NCBI RefSeq assembly: GCF_000768065.1
Contig: NZ_JRKM01000001.1
Coordinates: 186,001 to 250,000, forward strand
Length of the DNA stretch: 64,000 bases
Direction: 5' to 3'
Origin: Aquabacterium sp. NJ1
Lineage (GTDB): Bacteria; Pseudomonadota; Gammaproteobacteria; Burkholderiales; Burkholderiaceae_C
Shown: positions 3,453 through 32,818 of the stretch, in pieces
Numbering within the stretch: position 1 is the stretch's first letter
How the letters are laid out: every line of letters starts with the position of its first letter
Made by a program: the position numbers and the translations under genes
The notes under the pieces: generated by a model
What the model was told of the DNA's origin: nothing
What the model saw: only the letters and a program-made list of their open reading frames with translations
The model's database searches: none

Positions 3453-4205
3453 TCAGGCAAACAGGGCACGAACCCTTTCCAGGTCTTCGGGGGTGTCCAC
3501 GCCCGCGCCAGGCGCCTGCTGCGTCACGTGCACGGCGATACGCTCACCGTGCCACAACACCCGCAACTGCTCCAGCGACTCGGCCGCTTCCAGCGGGCTG
3601 GGCGGCAGCTGGGGGAAGCGCCGCAGAAAACCTGCACGGTAGCCGTAGATGCCAATGTGCCGCAAGGGCCTGGCATCCCCGCTGGCGGGCTGGCCAGCTT
3701 GCGGTGCGTCACGCCACCACGGAATCGGTGCACGCGAAAAATACAGCGCCCGACCTTGGGCATCCAGCACCACTTTGACCACATTGGGGTTGCCAAAGTG
3801 AGCGTCATCCTCGATCGGATGCGCCGCCGTGCTGACCACGCAGTCAGGGCGCTGATCCAGTTGCGCGGCGCAGGCGTTGATCAGGGCAGGGTCGATCAAG
3901 GGCTCATCACCCTGCACATTGACCACGGCGTCCAGCCCATCGAGGCCCAGGATGGTGCACGCCTCGGCCAGGCGATCGCTGCCGGTAGGGTGATCAGCCC
4001 GGGTCATGACACAGCGCACGCCGTGCTGCTCACATGCCTGCTGGATGCGCGGGTCATCCGTGGCCACAACCACCTGGCTGGCCGCACTCTGGGCCGCACG
4101 CTGGGCCACGCGCACCACCATGGGCAGGCCAGCGATGTCGGCCAGGGGCTTGTCCGGCAGGCGGGTGGATGCCAGCCGCGCAGGGATCAGAACGGTGAAC
4201 CCCAT
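3453..4205 (-). CDS. kdsB: 3-deoxy-manno-octulosonate cytidylyltransferase
   Basis: Activates Kdo with CTP to CMP-Kdo for lipopolysaccharide inner-core synthesis (cytoplasm). About 250 aa. The N-terminal nucleotide-binding motif is [17 protein letters not shown]; further family motifs are [24 protein letters not shown] and YFSRAPIP. I chose the ATG at 4205 over a TTG two codons upstream (4211) because homologues start right at this motif. The start lies 2 bases past the stop of the Trm112-like gene, so the two are probably translationally coupled. Part of an exbB-exbD-lpxK-trm112-kdsB-adk run. Confidence 0.96.
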
Positions 4206-4207
4206 GC

Positions 4208-4420
4208 TCAAGACCCCATGGGGGCGGAGGGCACGGGCGCGACAGGCATGTCGTTGTCGTCCAGAGGTACCGCCTCGTTTTCCAGCATCACAGGGATACC
4301 GTCGCGAATGGGAAAGCCCAGGCGATCAGCGTGGCAGATCAGGTGCTGGCCCTGGAGCCGGCGCTGCAGCGGCCCTTTGCAGACAGGGCAGACCAGCAGT
4401 TCAATGAGTCGAGTATCCAT
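4208..4420 (-). CDS. Trm112 / YcaR-family small zinc-ribbon protein
   Basis: 70 aa. It starts [18 protein letters not shown], with a CPVC pair at residues 11-14, and has the family core [15 protein letters not shown]. In E. coli the equivalent gene, ycaR, sits between lpxK and kdsB, exactly as here. Eukaryotic and archaeal Trm112 proteins activate methyltransferases; the bacterial role is unclear. The second Cys pair of the classic zinc ribbon is not obvious. The C-terminal tail ([11 protein letters not shown]) is Pro/Ala-rich. Confidence 0.9.
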
Positions 4421-4429
4421 AGCGGTTCT

Positions 4430-5512
4430 TCAGCCAGGTTGGTGGCGATTCGGGAGCTTTTCCAGCGCCGAGTCAAGCTCGCGCCAGAAAGAGGCCTGAG
4501 GGTGGAAGTCTAGTGCCGCAACCCACACGCGACAGCCCGGGCGCTCGCGGGCCAGTCGATCAGGGTCAAGTTTGACGGCATCTTTTTCGGTCACGATGAC
4601 CTCCCGGGCGTGTTCAGGCCAGGGGATGTCGGCCATTTCGGCATGATCAGGCAAAGCCACCGGCGTGATCCGCAAGCCCTGGCTGCGCAGCGCATCAAAA
4701 AAGCGTTGCGGATGCGCGATGCCGGCCACCGCCCAGACACCATCTGCGCTGTTGGCAAGAGAGGCCGTCGCACTGTTGGCCAAGCCACCGACCCACCAGT
4801 CGTCCAGCAAGCGCAGCGGCGCCATGGCACTGAGGGCAAGGTGGCCGGGCAGGGTGGTGCTGGCTTGCGGTGCGTTGTAGAGCACCAGGGGCGGCGCACA
4901 CAGCCCAGGTGTTGGCGGCGTGTGGATGGGTTCGCGCAAAGGGCCCGCGGGCAACAGCCAGCCATTGCCTGCGCCCCGACCATCGAACACGATGACCTCG
5001 ACATCGCGCTGCAGGCGCAGGTGCTGCAAGCCATCGTCACAGACCAGGATGTTGATGTCGGGATGAGCCTGCAGCAGCGCCAGGCCACCCGATGCGCGGT
5101 CACGGTTGACCATGATCGGCACGCCCGTGCGTCGCCAGATCAGAAGTGGTTCGTCCCCGCACTGCCGGGCGGTCAATCGTGAAGCCGAATTCACATCGAT
5201 CAGCAGCCCCTGCTGGCCTTGCGGCAACTGGGCCTTGTAGCCGCGCGTCAGGACACCGGGGCGCCAGCCGCACGCCTTGAGGTGCGCCAGCAAGGCGATC
5301 GTGGTGGGCGTCTTGCCTGCCCCGCCGACGATCCGGTTGCCCACCACCACCACGGGCACCGGCATCTTGCGGGATGCCAGCCAGCCCATGCGGTAGCCCT
5401 GGCGCCTGCACGCCACCACCGCCCCCATCAGCCAGGCGAGAGGCAGCAATGCCATGGCCAGAGGCCCCTTGCGGAGCCAGGCCTGGTTGAGTCGGGCTTC
5501 GATGAGGCTCAT
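4430..5512 (-). CDS. lpxK: tetraacyldisaccharide 4'-kinase LpxK
   Basis: Phosphorylates the 4' position of the lipid A disaccharide precursor at the inner membrane, forming lipid IVA. 360 aa. A hydrophobic N-terminal segment (about 17-35) is the membrane anchor. The P-loop is GNRIVGGAGKTPTT (58-71), and the family motif DDGLQHLRLQRD lies near the middle. ATG start at 5512, 57 bp after exbD. It shares the operon with trm112 and kdsB, so lipid A and Kdo synthesis are linked here. Confidence 0.97.
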   Translation of the reverse strand: MSLIEARLNQAWLRKGPLAMALLPLAWLMGAVVACRRQGYRMGWLASRKMPVPVVVVGNRIVGGAGKTPTTIALLAHLKACGWRPGVLTRGYKAQLPQGQQGLLIDVNSASRLTARQCGDEPLLIWRRTGVPIMVNRDRASGGLALLQAHPDINILVCDDGLQHLRLQRDVEVIVFDGRGAGNGWLLPAGPLREPIHTPPTPGLCAPPLVLYNAPQASTTLPGHLALSAMAPLRLLDDWWVGGLANSATASLANSADGVWAVAGIAHPQRFFDALRSQGLRITPVALPDHAEMADIPWPEHAREVIVTEKDAVKLDPDRLARERPGCRVWVAALDFHPQASFWRELDSALEKLPNRHQPG

Positions 5513-6043: not shown

Positions 6044-6682
6044 TCAGCGGCGGCTGGAAGTCAGGCGCAGCAGGTGCGGCACCATGCGCTCGGCGGCCTG
6101 CTCCATGGCCACGGTGTAGGCGTCGATGCGGGCCCGGAAATGGCGGTAGAACATCAACGAGGGAATGGCCACGATCAGGCCAAATGCGGTGTTGTACAGC
6201 GCCACAGAAATACCGTGCGCCAGTTCCATGGGGTTGGCGCCGGCCGAACCGGTGGCGGCGCCCGAGGCGCCAAAGATCTCGATCATGCCGATCACCGTGC
6301 CGAGCAGGCCCATGAGCGGCGCTGCGCTGGCAATGGTGCCCAAGGCATTGAGGTTGCGCTCCATCTGGTGGACCGCATCACGCCCGGCGGACTCGAAAGC
6401 CGCACGGAGGTTGGCATCGCTGATGCGGGGCTCGGCCAGCGCGGCGCGCAGCCCCTGTGCGAGCAACAGCCCGAGGACGGAGTTTTCGGCCAGCTTGTTG
6501 ACCGTGTCGGCCGAAGGCAGGCCGGAGCGTGTGACCGAGATCACCTCGTCAACCAGGCGGCTGGGGGCGACACGCGCCTCACGCAGGCTGAGAAAGCGCT
6601 CGATGACCAGGGCCAGGGCCACAATGGAGCACAGCACGAGGGGAATGATGGGCCAACCGGCGGCTTGAAGGATCGACAGCAA
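6044..6682 (-). CDS. exbB: ExbB / MotA-TolQ-ExbB proton channel family protein
   Basis: Forms the inner-membrane proton channel with ExbD. 212 aa with three transmembrane segments (about 10-30, 108-135, 155-180). The family core APLMGLLGTVIGMIEIF is present. The start codon is TTG at 6682, supported by GGGAG seven bases upstream. First gene of the minus-strand run that continues through exbD, lpxK, trm112, kdsB and adk. Its control region is the long gap 6683-7160. Confidence 0.93.
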   Translation of the reverse strand: MLSILQAAGWPIIPLVLCSIVALALVIERFLSLREARVAPSRLVDEVISVTRSGLPSADTVNKLAENSVLGLLLAQGLRAALAEPRISDANLRAAFESAGRDAVHQMERNLNALGTIASAAPLMGLLGTVIGMIEIFGASGAATGSAGANPMELAHGISVALYNTAFGLIVAIPSLMFYRHFRARIDAYTVAMEQAAERMVPHLLRLTSSRR

Positions 6683-28757: not shown

Positions 28758-28783
28758 CCGTTTTGCGTCAGTCAGTCAACAAG

Positions 28784-30004
28784 ATGTCCCATATCCGTTA
28801 CGAGGTGACTTTCACCGGCGATGCCGAGACCTACCGGCCCATCTGGCGCAGGAACATGCTGCTGATGTTGCTGACGGCCGGGATCGCCTTGCCCTGGGCC
28901 CTGGTGGGCCGGCTGCGCTATTTCTACCAGCACACCTATGTGGCGGGCGCCAACCTCGACTACCACGTCAACCCCTGGAAGATGTTCGCCGGCAACATGG
29001 TGGCCACGGTGATCCTCAACGCAATCTATTACGGCATCTCCTTGACCGGGCCATATCGCCTGATGGGCGTGGCGGCCATGCAGTTGCTCACCGCCTCGAT
29101 GCTGCCCATTGGCCTGCACGGCTACCTGGAGTTCCAGCTTCAGCACACGAGCTGGCGCGGGCAGCGCCTGAGGCTGGCCGCCACGCCGGTGGACGCCATC
29201 AAGGCCATGGGCTTGCCCACGCTGCTGTACATCACAGGCGGCGTGACCGCCGTGTGGGCCGTGATCGCCGGCATGGATGGGCAGCGTAGCTTGTCTTATG
29301 GCCTGGGCGCCGTGGCTGCCGTGGCCCTGTGTATCGCCTTGCCTTGGGTGTATGTGCAATTCAAGCGCTACCAGCATCGCCATGCCGTGCTGGGCAACTG
29401 GGGCAATGAGCGAAGCTCGGGCATGCCCCGCGGGCAAGCCTGGGGGATCACACTGGTCACGGGCACGCTGGCGCTGCTGGCCCTGCTGGCGGTGGTGTTG
29501 CCTTTGACTTGGGGCTTGTCCGAACTGGTCGGGTTGGACTGGGCCACCGTGGCCCGCATGAAGCAGACCGAGCACACCGCCGAAAGCATCCGGCTGGCCC
29601 TGGTGTGGGTGCCTGGCGTGCTGCTGCTGATTGTGGCGATGATGGCCTTGCCTTATCCCTATCTCAGCGCGCAACTGCAAAACCGCCTGTGGTCTGACAC
29701 CGCGCACGAACTCATCCGGTTCGAGAGCGCGGTGCCCTTGGCGGAACTGCTCAAGCTGACCAGCCGCAACTGGGCCTTGATCGCCTGCACCCTGGGCTGG
29801 TACTACCCGAAGGCGGCCATCACCGAGGCCCGGCTGCGCATGCAGTCGGTCTCGGTGTGGATCAGGCCAGAAGCACTGGCCGAGCCTCCGCAAGAGCCGT
29901 TGCCCGTCACGACGACATCACCCGATCAGCAAGGCACCCAGCTGCAGGCGCGCCATGTGGGGCTGGTGATGTCAGGACCGACGGAGCCCACGCCCCAGAG
30001 GTGA
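28784..30004 (+). CDS. DUF898 (YjgN-family) inner-membrane protein
   Basis: About 406 aa from the ATG at 28784. The start fits the family: IRYEVTFTGDAETYRPIWRR, with the FxG motif seen at the beginning of YjgN proteins. It continues NMLLMLLTAGIALPWALVGRLRYFYQHT and has about eight hydrophobic segments. WGNERSSG and FKRYQHRH are loop motifs. Function in the family is unknown. The last 79 bp overlap the 3' end of the convergent DUF6345 gene, and the final 40 residues (Gln/Thr/Pro-rich) are probably a non-conserved tail. Confidence 0.85.
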   Translation: MSHIRYEVTFTGDAETYRPIWRRNMLLMLLTAGIALPWALVGRLRYFYQHTYVAGANLDYHVNPWKMFAGNMVATVILNAIYYGISLTGPYRLMGVAAMQLLTASMLPIGLHGYLEFQLQHTSWRGQRLRLAATPVDAIKAMGLPTLLYITGGVTAVWAVIAGMDGQRSLSYGLGAVAAVALCIALPWVYVQFKRYQHRHAVLGNWGNERSSGMPRGQAWGITLVTGTLALLALLAVVLPLTWGLSELVGLDWATVARMKQTEHTAESIRLALVWVPGVLLLIVAMMALPYPYLSAQLQNRLWSDTAHELIRFESAVPLAELLKLTSRNWALIACTLGWYYPKAAITEARLRMQSVSVWIRPEALAEPPQEPLPVTTTSPDQQGTQLQARHVGLVMSGPTEPTPQR

Positions 30005-31641
30005 TCGTTGCCGGTCGACCCACTGGCGTTGCCGATGTAGTAGGCCCCCACCCAGATGCCCGATCCCTGGATTTCCTGCCCCGTTCTGAACCAGGACTGG
30101 ATGATGCTGGAGCCGCTCTTGGCGTACTGCGCCAGGCGCTTGCCTTCTTCCTCGGTGTCGTAAGTGACCTGGGCGTAGCCCATCAGGATGTGCATGCCGT
30201 CGAAGGCATCGCGCCAGCGTTCCAGCACATCGCCACCGCTCTCCACCACCTCGTCCTGCAAGGGGCCGCAAGCGGCAATGACCGCCCATTCCAGGTTGTT
30301 GGCGCCCCAGAGATCGCGGGCACCAGCCGTTTCGGTGAAGTGCAGGAAGGTGTCGTCCGGCGTGGCCAGCACCCAACCATCGCTGTTGGCATGGCCCGTG
30401 TAGAACACGAAGTCCACGGCATCCACCCAGCTGTCGTCGTTCCTGCGCCAGTCGGATTCCCAGGCAGCGGCATCCCCCCAGTTGAAGCGGATGTTCCAGC
30501 CAATGGCAGATAACTCGTCCACAAAGCCCTTGGCGTTGTTCTGACTGCCGCTGAGCCCGCCTGACAAGCCGATCCACGAGGTACCGGCCGAGTAGTAGCC
30601 CAGCAGGTTGGCCAGCTCCTTGATCTGCACCTGCGTCAGGTTGGGGTTGACGATCAAGGGCGTGTTAGCAGGCCCCGGCACGAAGTAGTCCGTGAACTGG
30701 AGCTTGCGGCTGAGCATCGTCCGCTTGTTGAGCGCGATGCCGGGTGGCAGGGCCTTGCCCGGCACAGGCATGAAGTCGGCCGGCAAGGGGCGAACGTGAG
30801 GCTCACTCTTGCTGCTTCGCGGTGGGGCCATGGCGGCAGCTTGCGCGGCTGGCCCGACATCCGTGGCAGGGATCATGACCTTGCGCAGGGGTACCCGGTT
30901 GCCCTTGAAGTCGGCCACGGCGCTGTAGACATAGACGGGGTAGAGCATGTCCTGCTCTGCAAACGCCGGCGCGGCGTAATAGGCCAGCTCGGACGTGAAT
31001 TCGCTGACAGGGGTGTTGCCCATCCGCGCCTTGAATTGCTCGTCTGCCTTCTTCTGCGGGATCACGTCATGCAGGACGGGCTTGCCGATGCTGGGCCGCC
31101 AGACGCCACCCGCAGCAAGCAGGCTACCGCCATCGCCGTGCACCGTGGTGAAGCGGCCTCCACCACCAACCACGGACAGAGCCTTTTGCTTGAGGCCGTA
31201 ATCGCTGACATCCACCTCGACATCGGTGATCACGGTGTTGTCCTCGTGAATGACCTGGCGAGGCGCGCCCTTCTTGGCGGAGAAGGCCGTGACCGCACCA
31301 GTGGCCCGGGGCGTCTTGAGCCGAAACGGGCCAGACAGCTCAGGCGTGATGTGGTGGGTCTTGAGGATGTCGAGGCTGAGCTTTCTGGCCTCTGGCGTGC
31401 CCAGCAGGCGGGGCTTCTTGCCCGAAGCGGGATCGAATCGCCAAAGCCGAGTGGTGTCAGCGGCCCAGACCCCGCCCTTGCCGGTGTCCACTTCGATCTG
31501 CCCGAGCGGGCAGCGCAACTCCAGCTTGGTGCCACGCTCCACGATCTGGTGGTCCTGGCGAGGAAAGAGGCGTTGCCCAAGTTCTCTGATGTGATCGGCC
31601 GGCGCAATGGTGCTGGCGACCTTGTAGACAGGTAGTTTCAT
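29926..31641 (-). CDS. DUF6345 protein with caspase/gingipain-like His...Cys pattern
   Basis: 571 aa from the ATG at 31641, which has GGAG eight bases upstream. No signal peptide or membrane segment, so it is probably cytoplasmic. Residues about 1-210 are a beta-rich part with several short hydrophobic strands. Residues about 270-305 are a Pro/Ser-rich linker. The C-terminal 240 residues match DUF6345 in pattern: DFVFYTGHANSDGW (His417), then EWAVIAACGPL (Cys458) 41 residues later. A strand followed by H-x-N/G, and a strand followed by A-C-G, is the layout of the catalytic dyad in clan CD cysteine peptidases. That is my inference. The family has no established activity that I know of. A small unknown gene lies 56 bp upstream on the same strand. 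The family name is fairly sure, the peptidase role is not. Confidence 0.75.
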   Translation of the reverse strand: MKLPVYKVASTIAPADHIRELGQRLFPRQDHQIVERGTKLELRCPLGQIEVDTGKGGVWAADTTRLWRFDPASGKKPRLLGTPEARKLSLDILKTHHITPELSGPFRLKTPRATGAVTAFSAKKGAPRQVIHEDNTVITDVEVDVSDYGLKQKALSVVGGGGRFTTVHGDGGSLLAAGGVWRPSIGKPVLHDVIPQKKADEQFKARMGNTPVSEFTSELAYYAAPAFAEQDMLYPVYVYSAVADFKGNRVPLRKVMIPATDVGPAAQAAAMAPPRSSKSEPHVRPLPADFMPVPGKALPPGIALNKRTMLSRKLQFTDYFVPGPANTPLIVNPNLTQVQIKELANLLGYYSAGTSWIGLSGGLSGSQNNAKGFVDELSAIGWNIRFNWGDAAAWESDWRRNDDSWVDAVDFVFYTGHANSDGWVLATPDDTFLHFTETAGARDLWGANNLEWAVIAACGPLQDEVVESGGDVLERWRDAFDGMHILMGYAQVTYDTEEEGKRLAQYAKSGSSIIQSWFRTGQEIQGSGIWVGAYYIGNASGSTGNDHLWGVGSVGPDITSPTWRACSWVPC

Positions 31642-31697
31642 GATGGCGCTCCATGTTGGTGAATCACTGCCACTCAATCGAACTGCTTGCTGTCGGC

Positions 31698-32006
31698 TTA
31701 TTCGCCTTCGCCGACCGGCTCGGTGGTACCGGTGCCGAAGAAGCCCCGGCCTTGTGCGAAATAGATCTGGATCGGTTTCTCGTTGCGCAGGATGTCCAGC
31801 ACGCTCTGGAACATGGTGCTGGGCAGGTGCATGGTGATGACGCCGTTGTTGTAGGCATCGTTTTCAAACACCATGCCGGGGTCGTTGAAACGAACGTAGG
31901 CAATGGTGTTGCCCGCGCTGCCGTACAAGGCAATTTGCGAGCGGTTGGTCTGGTAGCCCTCCGGGCCGCCGTAGACGAGCACGTGGTATTTGGTGACTTC
32001 GGCCAT
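31698..32006 (-). CDS. small protein of unknown function, partner of the DUF6345 gene
   Basis: 102 aa from the ATG at 32006, with GGAG seven bases before it; an ATG one codon earlier is equally possible. Sequence features: an N-terminal strand KYHVLVYGGPEGYQTNRSQ, ALYGSAGNTIAYVRF, a MHLPSTMFQSVLDILRNEKP segment, and an acidic C-terminal tail (TTEPVGEGE). It looks like a small compact alpha/beta domain. No signal peptide or membrane segment. I do not recognise a named family. It is directly upstream of the DUF6345 gene, same strand, 56-bp gap, so the two are likely one transcript. It could be an activator, inhibitor or substrate. Confidence 0.75.
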   Translation of the reverse strand: MAEVTKYHVLVYGGPEGYQTNRSQIALYGSAGNTIAYVRFNDPGMVFENDAYNNGVITMHLPSTMFQSVLDILRNEKPIQIYFAQGRGFFGTGTTEPVGEGE

Positions 32007-32194: not shown

Positions 32195-32818
32195 TCAGCG
32201 CACCTCGGCGATGCCCCAGTAGTGGTACGACACGAACCTGGGCCCCGGCAGGTAGCTGGACTGCACGTCGGACTGGAAACCCGCGTCGCGCAGCAAGAAG
32301 GGCACATCGCGGTCGAGCATGCAACCGCCGGCCAGCTTGCTCCAGTAGGGTTGCAGGCGCGTCTGCCATTTGCTGACGTTCGCGTCCGGTGCGCGGCCGT
32401 GTTCGGAGAACAGCAGCTTGCCGCCAGGTTTGAGCACGCGGCGCATTTCAGCCAGGGCCGCCGCCGGGTCCGGAATGGTGCACAAGGTGTAGGTGCAGAC
32501 CACGGTGTCGAAACTGGCATCCTCAACGGGCAGGCGCTCGGCCGACAGCCCGATGAGGTCGACGTCCAGGCCTGCCTGTGCGATGCGCTTTTGCGCCAGC
32601 CCATGCATGCGCAGTGCAGGGTCCACGCCGGTGATGCGGGCGACGCGGGCCTTGTCGTAGAAGGGGATGTTCAGGCCCGTGCCGATACCGATCTCCAGCA
32701 CCCGGCCTTGCGCCAGCGGGACGACCTTTTCACGTTGACGCGCCACGGGGCGAATGCCGCACGCCATGTCGATGAGATAGGGCAGCACATGCCGGTCGTA
32801 CCAGCTTTCATCGCTCAT
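32195..32818 (-). CDS. class I SAM-dependent methyltransferase
   Basis: 207 aa. SAM-binding motif I is GRVLEIGIGTGLNIPFYDK, motif II region TGVDPALRMHGLAQKR, then FDTVVCTYTLCTIPDPAAAL and VLKPGGKLLFSEHGRAPD. This is the UbiE/METTL7-like pattern (short form, Methyltransf_11). The substrate is unknown. It lies 6 bp after the PRPP-synthetase-like gene on the same strand, so it probably belongs to the same transcript as the two phosphoribosyl genes upstream. The 188-bp gap to the small gene at 32006 shows nothing clear. Confidence 0.88.
   Translation of the reverse strand: MSDESWYDRHVLPYLIDMACGIRPVARQREKVVPLAQGRVLEIGIGTGLNIPFYDKARVARITGVDPALRMHGLAQKRIAQAGLDVDLIGLSAERLPVEDASFDTVVCTYTLCTIPDPAAALAEMRRVLKPGGKLLFSEHGRAPDANVSKWQTRLQPYWSKLAGGCMLDRDVPFLLRDAGFQSDVQSSYLPGPRFVSYHYWGIAEVR

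Follow-up and report, generated by a model that had tools for sequence, protein, structure and literature searches.

A DUF6345 protein of Aquabacterium sp. NJ1 as a candidate clan CD-like cysteine peptidase with a propeptide-like N-terminal module

CHAT domains (PF12770) are caspase-like peptidases, as in TPR-CHAT/Csx29 of type III-E CRISPR, and these, together with the gingipain-type peptidases of family C25 (PF01364), are the described systems with which the protein reported here is compared. The clan CD features used for the comparison, namely a His-Cys dyad, a Gly beside the catalytic His, a caspase-like fold and P1-specific endopeptidase activity, are those given in PMC12445089. We analysed the gene of a DUF6345 protein, P0001, and a gene of 102 amino acids (aa) upstream of it, P0002, in a stretch of 64,000 nucleotides from Aquabacterium sp. 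NJ1 (contig NZ_JRKM01000001.1, positions 186,001 to 250,000; hereafter the window). The DUF6345 domain is likely to be clan CD-like, and on balance the whole protein is probably an active cysteine peptidase of the caspase/CHAT-like kind, with a regulatory, propeptide-like module at its N-terminus. Among the papers searched, none names DUF6345 or PF19872.

The CHAT-like features of DUF6345 are a hydrophobic strand followed by T-H-G/A and another followed by S/A-A-C, to which the global alignment adds a downstream Gly-rich strand and a C-terminal Trp motif; unlike CHAT systems, DUF6345 is without a TPR or CRISPR partner and has an N-terminal module of its own. By eye, GHANSDGW of P0001 also resembles DHGWWDGW of the C25 protein of its own genus, although P0001 differs from C25 in having no signal peptide. 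True C25 genes above the Pfam cut-off occur in 12 of the 31 relatives searched, including the host genome (G000:C1:3236040-3237278).

The DUF6345 domain, its predicted dyad and the N-terminal module

P0001 is a member of PF19872 (DUF6345; residues 359-563, E-value 1.4e-50, 172.3 bits against a cut-off of 26.9). As an earlier note on this DNA had reported, His417 (in FYTGHANSDGW) and Cys458 (in VIAACGPL) lie 41 residues apart and the protein begins without a signal-like segment, its best 15-residue hydropathy mean within the first 45 residues being 0.68, as compared with 1.6, 2.29 and 1.43 for the DUF6345-linked proteins P0003, P0009 and P0010. Seven DUF6345 proteins were aligned, from the window, an Aquabacterium metagenome-assembled genome (L007), Paraburkholderia (L008), Dyadobacter (L009), a Deinococcus plasmid (L014) and two genomes of the same class (L013 and L015). 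His417 is invariant among them and Cys458 is Cys in six and Ser in one, in line with the conserved dyad of clan CD. Asp407, Asp410, Glu451, His484, Trp517, Asn545 and Asp546 are also the same in all seven proteins, and the residue after the dyad His is Gly in three (P0003, P0004, P0010) and Ala in four, including the window, with His-Ala found in 4 of the 13 sequences of the CHAT comparison set.

The counterpart of P0001 in L007, which is the closest named relative of the window among the genomes compared, is 93% identical and has the same start. The ratio of non-synonymous to synonymous substitution rates (dN/dS) between the two is 0.059 for the whole gene and 0.10 for residues 1-335, and falls to 0.012 in the C-terminal domain (residues 336-571), where five non-synonymous differences are found over 543 sites at a dS of 0.77. 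This domain is under extreme purifying selection.

Consistent with a clan CD-like dyad, global alignment by hhalign of a profile of six DUF6345 domains with 13 CHAT domains (out of 17 matches, leaving out L061, which is cut, and L070, L074 and L075, which are partial) gave an E-value of 0.005 over 181 columns, with His placed on His, Cys on Cys, and NDHLWGVGSV from the C-terminal part of DUF6345 (the Trp549 region) over the CHAT Trp motif. The global score of 15.5 was not reached by any of 100 column shuffles (mean 1.8, maximum 9.9) and the local score was equalled by one in 100, column shuffling being a lenient null in which the order of secondary structure is lost too. A sub-threshold Peptidase_C25 match, spanning both dyad residues (402-459), was found in two of the seven proteins, P0001 (E-value 0.038) and P0008 (0.033). 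The dyad layout proposed in the earlier note is thus backed by conservation, by this match and by the CHAT alignment. A motif rule, framed after these families had been seen, required a hydrophobic strand followed by H-G/A and, 25-90 residues on, a hydrophobic strand followed by A/S/N-C; it holds for 6/7 DUF6345, 12/13 CHAT and 9/9 C25 sequences (9 of 15 C25 matches, leaving out L047 and L048 at contig ends and the partial L055-L058), and for 4 of 103 other open reading frames (ORFs) and 73 of 5000 shuffles of the DUF6345 domain. An earlier, narrower rule (4/7 DUF6345, 0/103 ORFs) also missed every CHAT (0/13) and C25 (0/9) sequence and was dropped.

The N-terminal module (residues 1 to about 270) has no Pfam match and is fused to DUF6345 in five of the seven proteins. 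It is present in the full-length Paraburkholderia and Dyadobacter homologues, as judged from the alignment of seven, and in the Deinococcus lipoprotein P0003 (hhalign E-value 1e-5, with 0/156 decoys and 0/100 shuffles as high), where an Ig-like domain (residues 272-374) stands between module and DUF6345 domain. In L013 a short DUF6345 protein, P0004, is followed 3 base pairs (bp) downstream by P0005, which aligned with the module at an E-value of about 0.01, above 155 other segments and all 100 shuffles; BLASTP between P0005 and P0001 gave no match. L015 encodes a secreted DUF6345 protein and, 33 bp further on, P0009, which is secreted as well and has a similar-looking strand. On weaker evidence than that for the fusions, the module may be a separate adjacent gene in one genome, perhaps two. 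When a module is part of the protein in some genomes and lies beside it in another, the two are usually functionally linked. The stretch PVVGGGG...GDGGSLLAAGG of P0001 resembles by eye the strand pattern of PepSY in the FTP/PepSY propeptides of M4 peptidases; Pfam gave no FTP/PepSY match in whole proteins or in fragments, the comparison containing no true FTP/PepSY sequences, and the FTP family was not found in the host genome. A KLRRS stretch just before the DUF6345 domain is common to the otherwise divergent linkers of P0006 and P0007 (L008 and L009).

Several results weigh against a peptidase of clan CD with such a module. P0010 carries Ser at the position of Cys458. The C25 matches score 13.7-13.8 bits, where the Pfam cut-off is 23, and so are not called by Pfam, and DUF6345 compared with the C25 profile at chance level (76/100 and 15/100 shuffles as high); membership of the C25 family was rejected on both grounds. 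CHAT (PF12770) was matched in Pfam by none of the seven proteins, single CHAT sequences exceeded the 95th percentile of 156 decoy segments from unrelated ORFs (P0005's own segment among them) in 4/13 cases locally and 0/13 globally, hhalign's own probability for the CHAT alignment was as low as 2.9%, and no useful match was found among solved structures. The same profile method could not join C25 with CHAT either, these two being at chance with the profiles used, which means that it has little power and that its negatives say little. As for the module, hhalign's own probability for P0005 was only 2.8%, and the relation of P0009 was not significant, since 21/156 decoys scored as high with one profile and 3/156 with another (a further count of 5/156 includes P0005, itself part of that profile); P0009 is accordingly not supported as a relative of the module.

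Could the domain be an unrelated alpha/beta domain in which the HxN...AC arrangement arose by chance? The C25 and single-sequence CHAT comparisons, at or near background, would agree with this, as would the unrelated ORFs that satisfy the motif rule, but both residues are conserved among distantly related members and the alignment with the CHAT profile is in register at both, and we consider this explanation unlikely. Of similarly low probability is a clan CD fold that is no peptidase, being catalytically dead, ligand-binding or a hydrolase of some other bond. The Ser of P0010 speaks for it, and the additional invariant residues His484 (in FDGMHILMG), Trp517, Asn545 and Asp546 suggest a site which we take to be unlike those of known clan CD families; both dyad residues are nevertheless kept in six of seven members, and the near absence of non-synonymous change in the domain also counts against this reading.

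DUF6345 is rare, with a member in 2 of 369 genomes of the class and 2 of 299 of the phylum (the host genome counted in both), and in 1 of 11 genomes of the family of G338; a control search also matched it in Methanosarcina. Searches with P0001 gave a single plasmid match, in Deinococcus, and none in phages, five scans of viral contigs revealed no relative, plasmid searches with the L013 and L014 queries added nothing, and a phage search with P0003 matched only its Ig-like region. The full-length DUF6345 genes of L008 (6060-7811) and L009 (3739-5451) each follow an unrelated flavoenzyme gene (FAD_binding_2 and GMC oxidoreductase) on the same strand, at distances of 177 and 123 bp; no such gene precedes DUF6345 in the window.

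The 102-aa gene as a separable neighbour

The upstream gene is, as the earlier note had it, of no known family and equipped with its own Shine-Dalgarno sequence: searches of Pfam, NCBIfam, PADLOC and PHROGs with P0002 were all negative at the limits applied, and a GGAG precedes the ATG at 32006 by 7 bases, another ATG lying one codon upstream. Relatives, which share an invariant E-P-x-G-E tail, were found in 3 of 42 genomes of the genus, 1 of 250 of the family and 4 of 369 of the class (own genome counted), and a profile search of 299 genomes of the phylum returned the window's own copy only. P0002 and its relatives from L010, L011 and L012 had no plasmid match, and P0002 had no phage match.

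The two genes were proposed in the earlier note to form an intracellular peptidase with a small activator, inhibitor or substrate. In favour of such a dedicated partner, the same arrangement, with 56 bp between the genes on one strand, is present in two Aquabacterium genomes, that of the window and L007, and both genes are under purifying selection. However, the small gene adjoins DUF6345 in only 2 of 7 DUF6345 loci, both of one Aquabacterium lineage (the window and L007), and DUF6345 adjoins the small gene in only 2 of 6 small-gene loci. No relative of the small gene occurs in the stretches around L008, L009, L013, L014 and L078 (a wider version of L015), and no DUF6345 in those around L011, L012 and L010, a 15.4 kb contig with a relative of 62% identity. 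An orthologous methyltransferase marks the site in eight relatives: both genes are present in G922 (L007), neither is found in the stretch examined in six others (L038-L043), and the sister species G899 (L037) keeps the small gene, 96% identical, next to a DUF6345 gene reduced to its last 30 codons (residues 542-571). This distribution points to insertion of the two genes into one lineage and later loss of DUF6345 in G899, where its position antisense to the tail of the convergent DUF898 gene is the probable reason why the remnant has been kept. At the site of this loss the small gene is followed by a short new sequence containing an inverted repeat, CGCCTT...AAGGCG (L037, 6927-6973).

The dN/dS of the small gene is 0.05-0.07 in comparisons both with and without DUF6345; the gene is thus under purifying selection, the weight of the comparison without DUF6345 depending on how old the G899 deletion is. 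An obligate pair was rejected on synteny, and the co-occurrence across genomes that a partnership would call for is not seen. A dedicated small activator, inhibitor or substrate is accordingly very unlikely, and the small gene is probably a separate, conserved small-protein family and an independent neighbour. Its relatives elsewhere have other neighbours: in L010 an EndoU ribonuclease-like gene (PF09412, E-value 2e-33), in L011 a sub-threshold trypsin-like protein and in L012 a protein that belongs to no family. The L010 ribonuclease (4165-5415) has a possible lamin tail domain, below cut-off, and the same contig encodes a secreted, Cys-rich protein of 146 aa with no Pfam match (6191-6631).

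Layout and surroundings of the locus

The features of the locus are collected in the table. A Shine-Dalgarno candidate, GGAG, is seen by eye 7 bases ahead of the DUF6345 ATG. Upstream of the two genes in this 5.02 Mb genome lie the methyltransferase gene (32195-32818, Pfam) and, further on, genes named by eye as ribose-phosphate pyrophosphokinase-like and thymidine/AMP phosphorylase-like. The DUF898 protein has 408 aa in the window and 408-409 aa wherever the insertion is present, versus 375-381 aa in L038, L039 and L043, where both genes are missing and the methyltransferase abuts DUF898; it is thus about 30 residues longer than in insertion-free relatives, the extra tail being antisense to the 3' end of DUF6345. 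PADLOC found no match to a known defence system for the pair and no neighbour points that way, so that the role in defence or death considered in the earlier note found no support.

Table. Features of the DUF6345 locus, in window coordinates.
Feature	Position	Strand	Remarks
Small gene, P0002	31698..32006	-	102 aa, ends EPVGEGE; relatives L007, L037, L010, L011, L012
DUF6345 gene, P0001	29926..31641	-	ATG start, 571 aa; GGAG; PF19872
N-terminal module, about residues 1-270	30832..31641	-	propeptide-like by eye (PVVGGGG...; YPVYVYSAVADF...); border at 270 approximate
Linker, about residues 271-345	30607..30831	-	basic, proline-rich; longer than in Paraburkholderia and Dyadobacter homologues (alignment of seven)
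DUF6345 domain, about residues 346-571	29929..30606	-	predicted clan CD-like hydrolase domain (Pfam 359-563, dN/dS, CHAT alignment)
His417 codon	30391..30393	-	predicted general base; His in 7/7
Cys458 codon	30268..30270	-	predicted nucleophile; Cys in 6/7, Ser in P0010
DUF898 gene	28778-30004	+	convergent, downstream of DUF6345 gene (Pfam)
Tail-to-tail overlap of DUF6345 and DUF898 genes	29926..30004	.	79 bp; DUF898 C-terminal tail extends into insertion

Proposed mechanism and meaning

From the sequence evidence, we suppose that the DUF6345 domain is a His-Cys hydrolase of the caspase, gingipain or CHAT type and, in this host, most likely a cytoplasmic cysteine peptidase. His417 would activate Cys458, which would then attack a peptide bond of some protein substrate. 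The N-terminal module of some 270 residues would serve as a propeptide or regulatory domain, keeping the enzyme inactive, in a zymogen-like manner, or presenting the substrate, and the basic linker is a plausible site of maturation. The 102-aa gene, an independent small-protein gene, would have entered a single Aquabacterium lineage at the site that DUF6345 also entered.

More tentatively, DUF6345 proteins may form an unrecognised family of clan CD cysteine peptidases whose propeptide-like module can be detached, being fused in a cytoplasmic protein (Aquabacterium, Paraburkholderia, Dyadobacter) or in a secreted Deinococcus lipoprotein and elsewhere split off as an adjacent, trans-acting regulator, with KLRRS as a possible site of self-cleavage. 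The natural deletion in G899 has already removed a misleading lead by showing that the small gene is separable. If the proposed activity is correct, a functionally uncharacterised Pfam domain with members in Proteobacteria, Bacteroidota, Deinococcus and Methanosarcina would gain a testable activity, with C458A as the obvious mutant, and would illustrate how the regulatory module of a caspase-like enzyme can be fused or unlinked depending on the genome.

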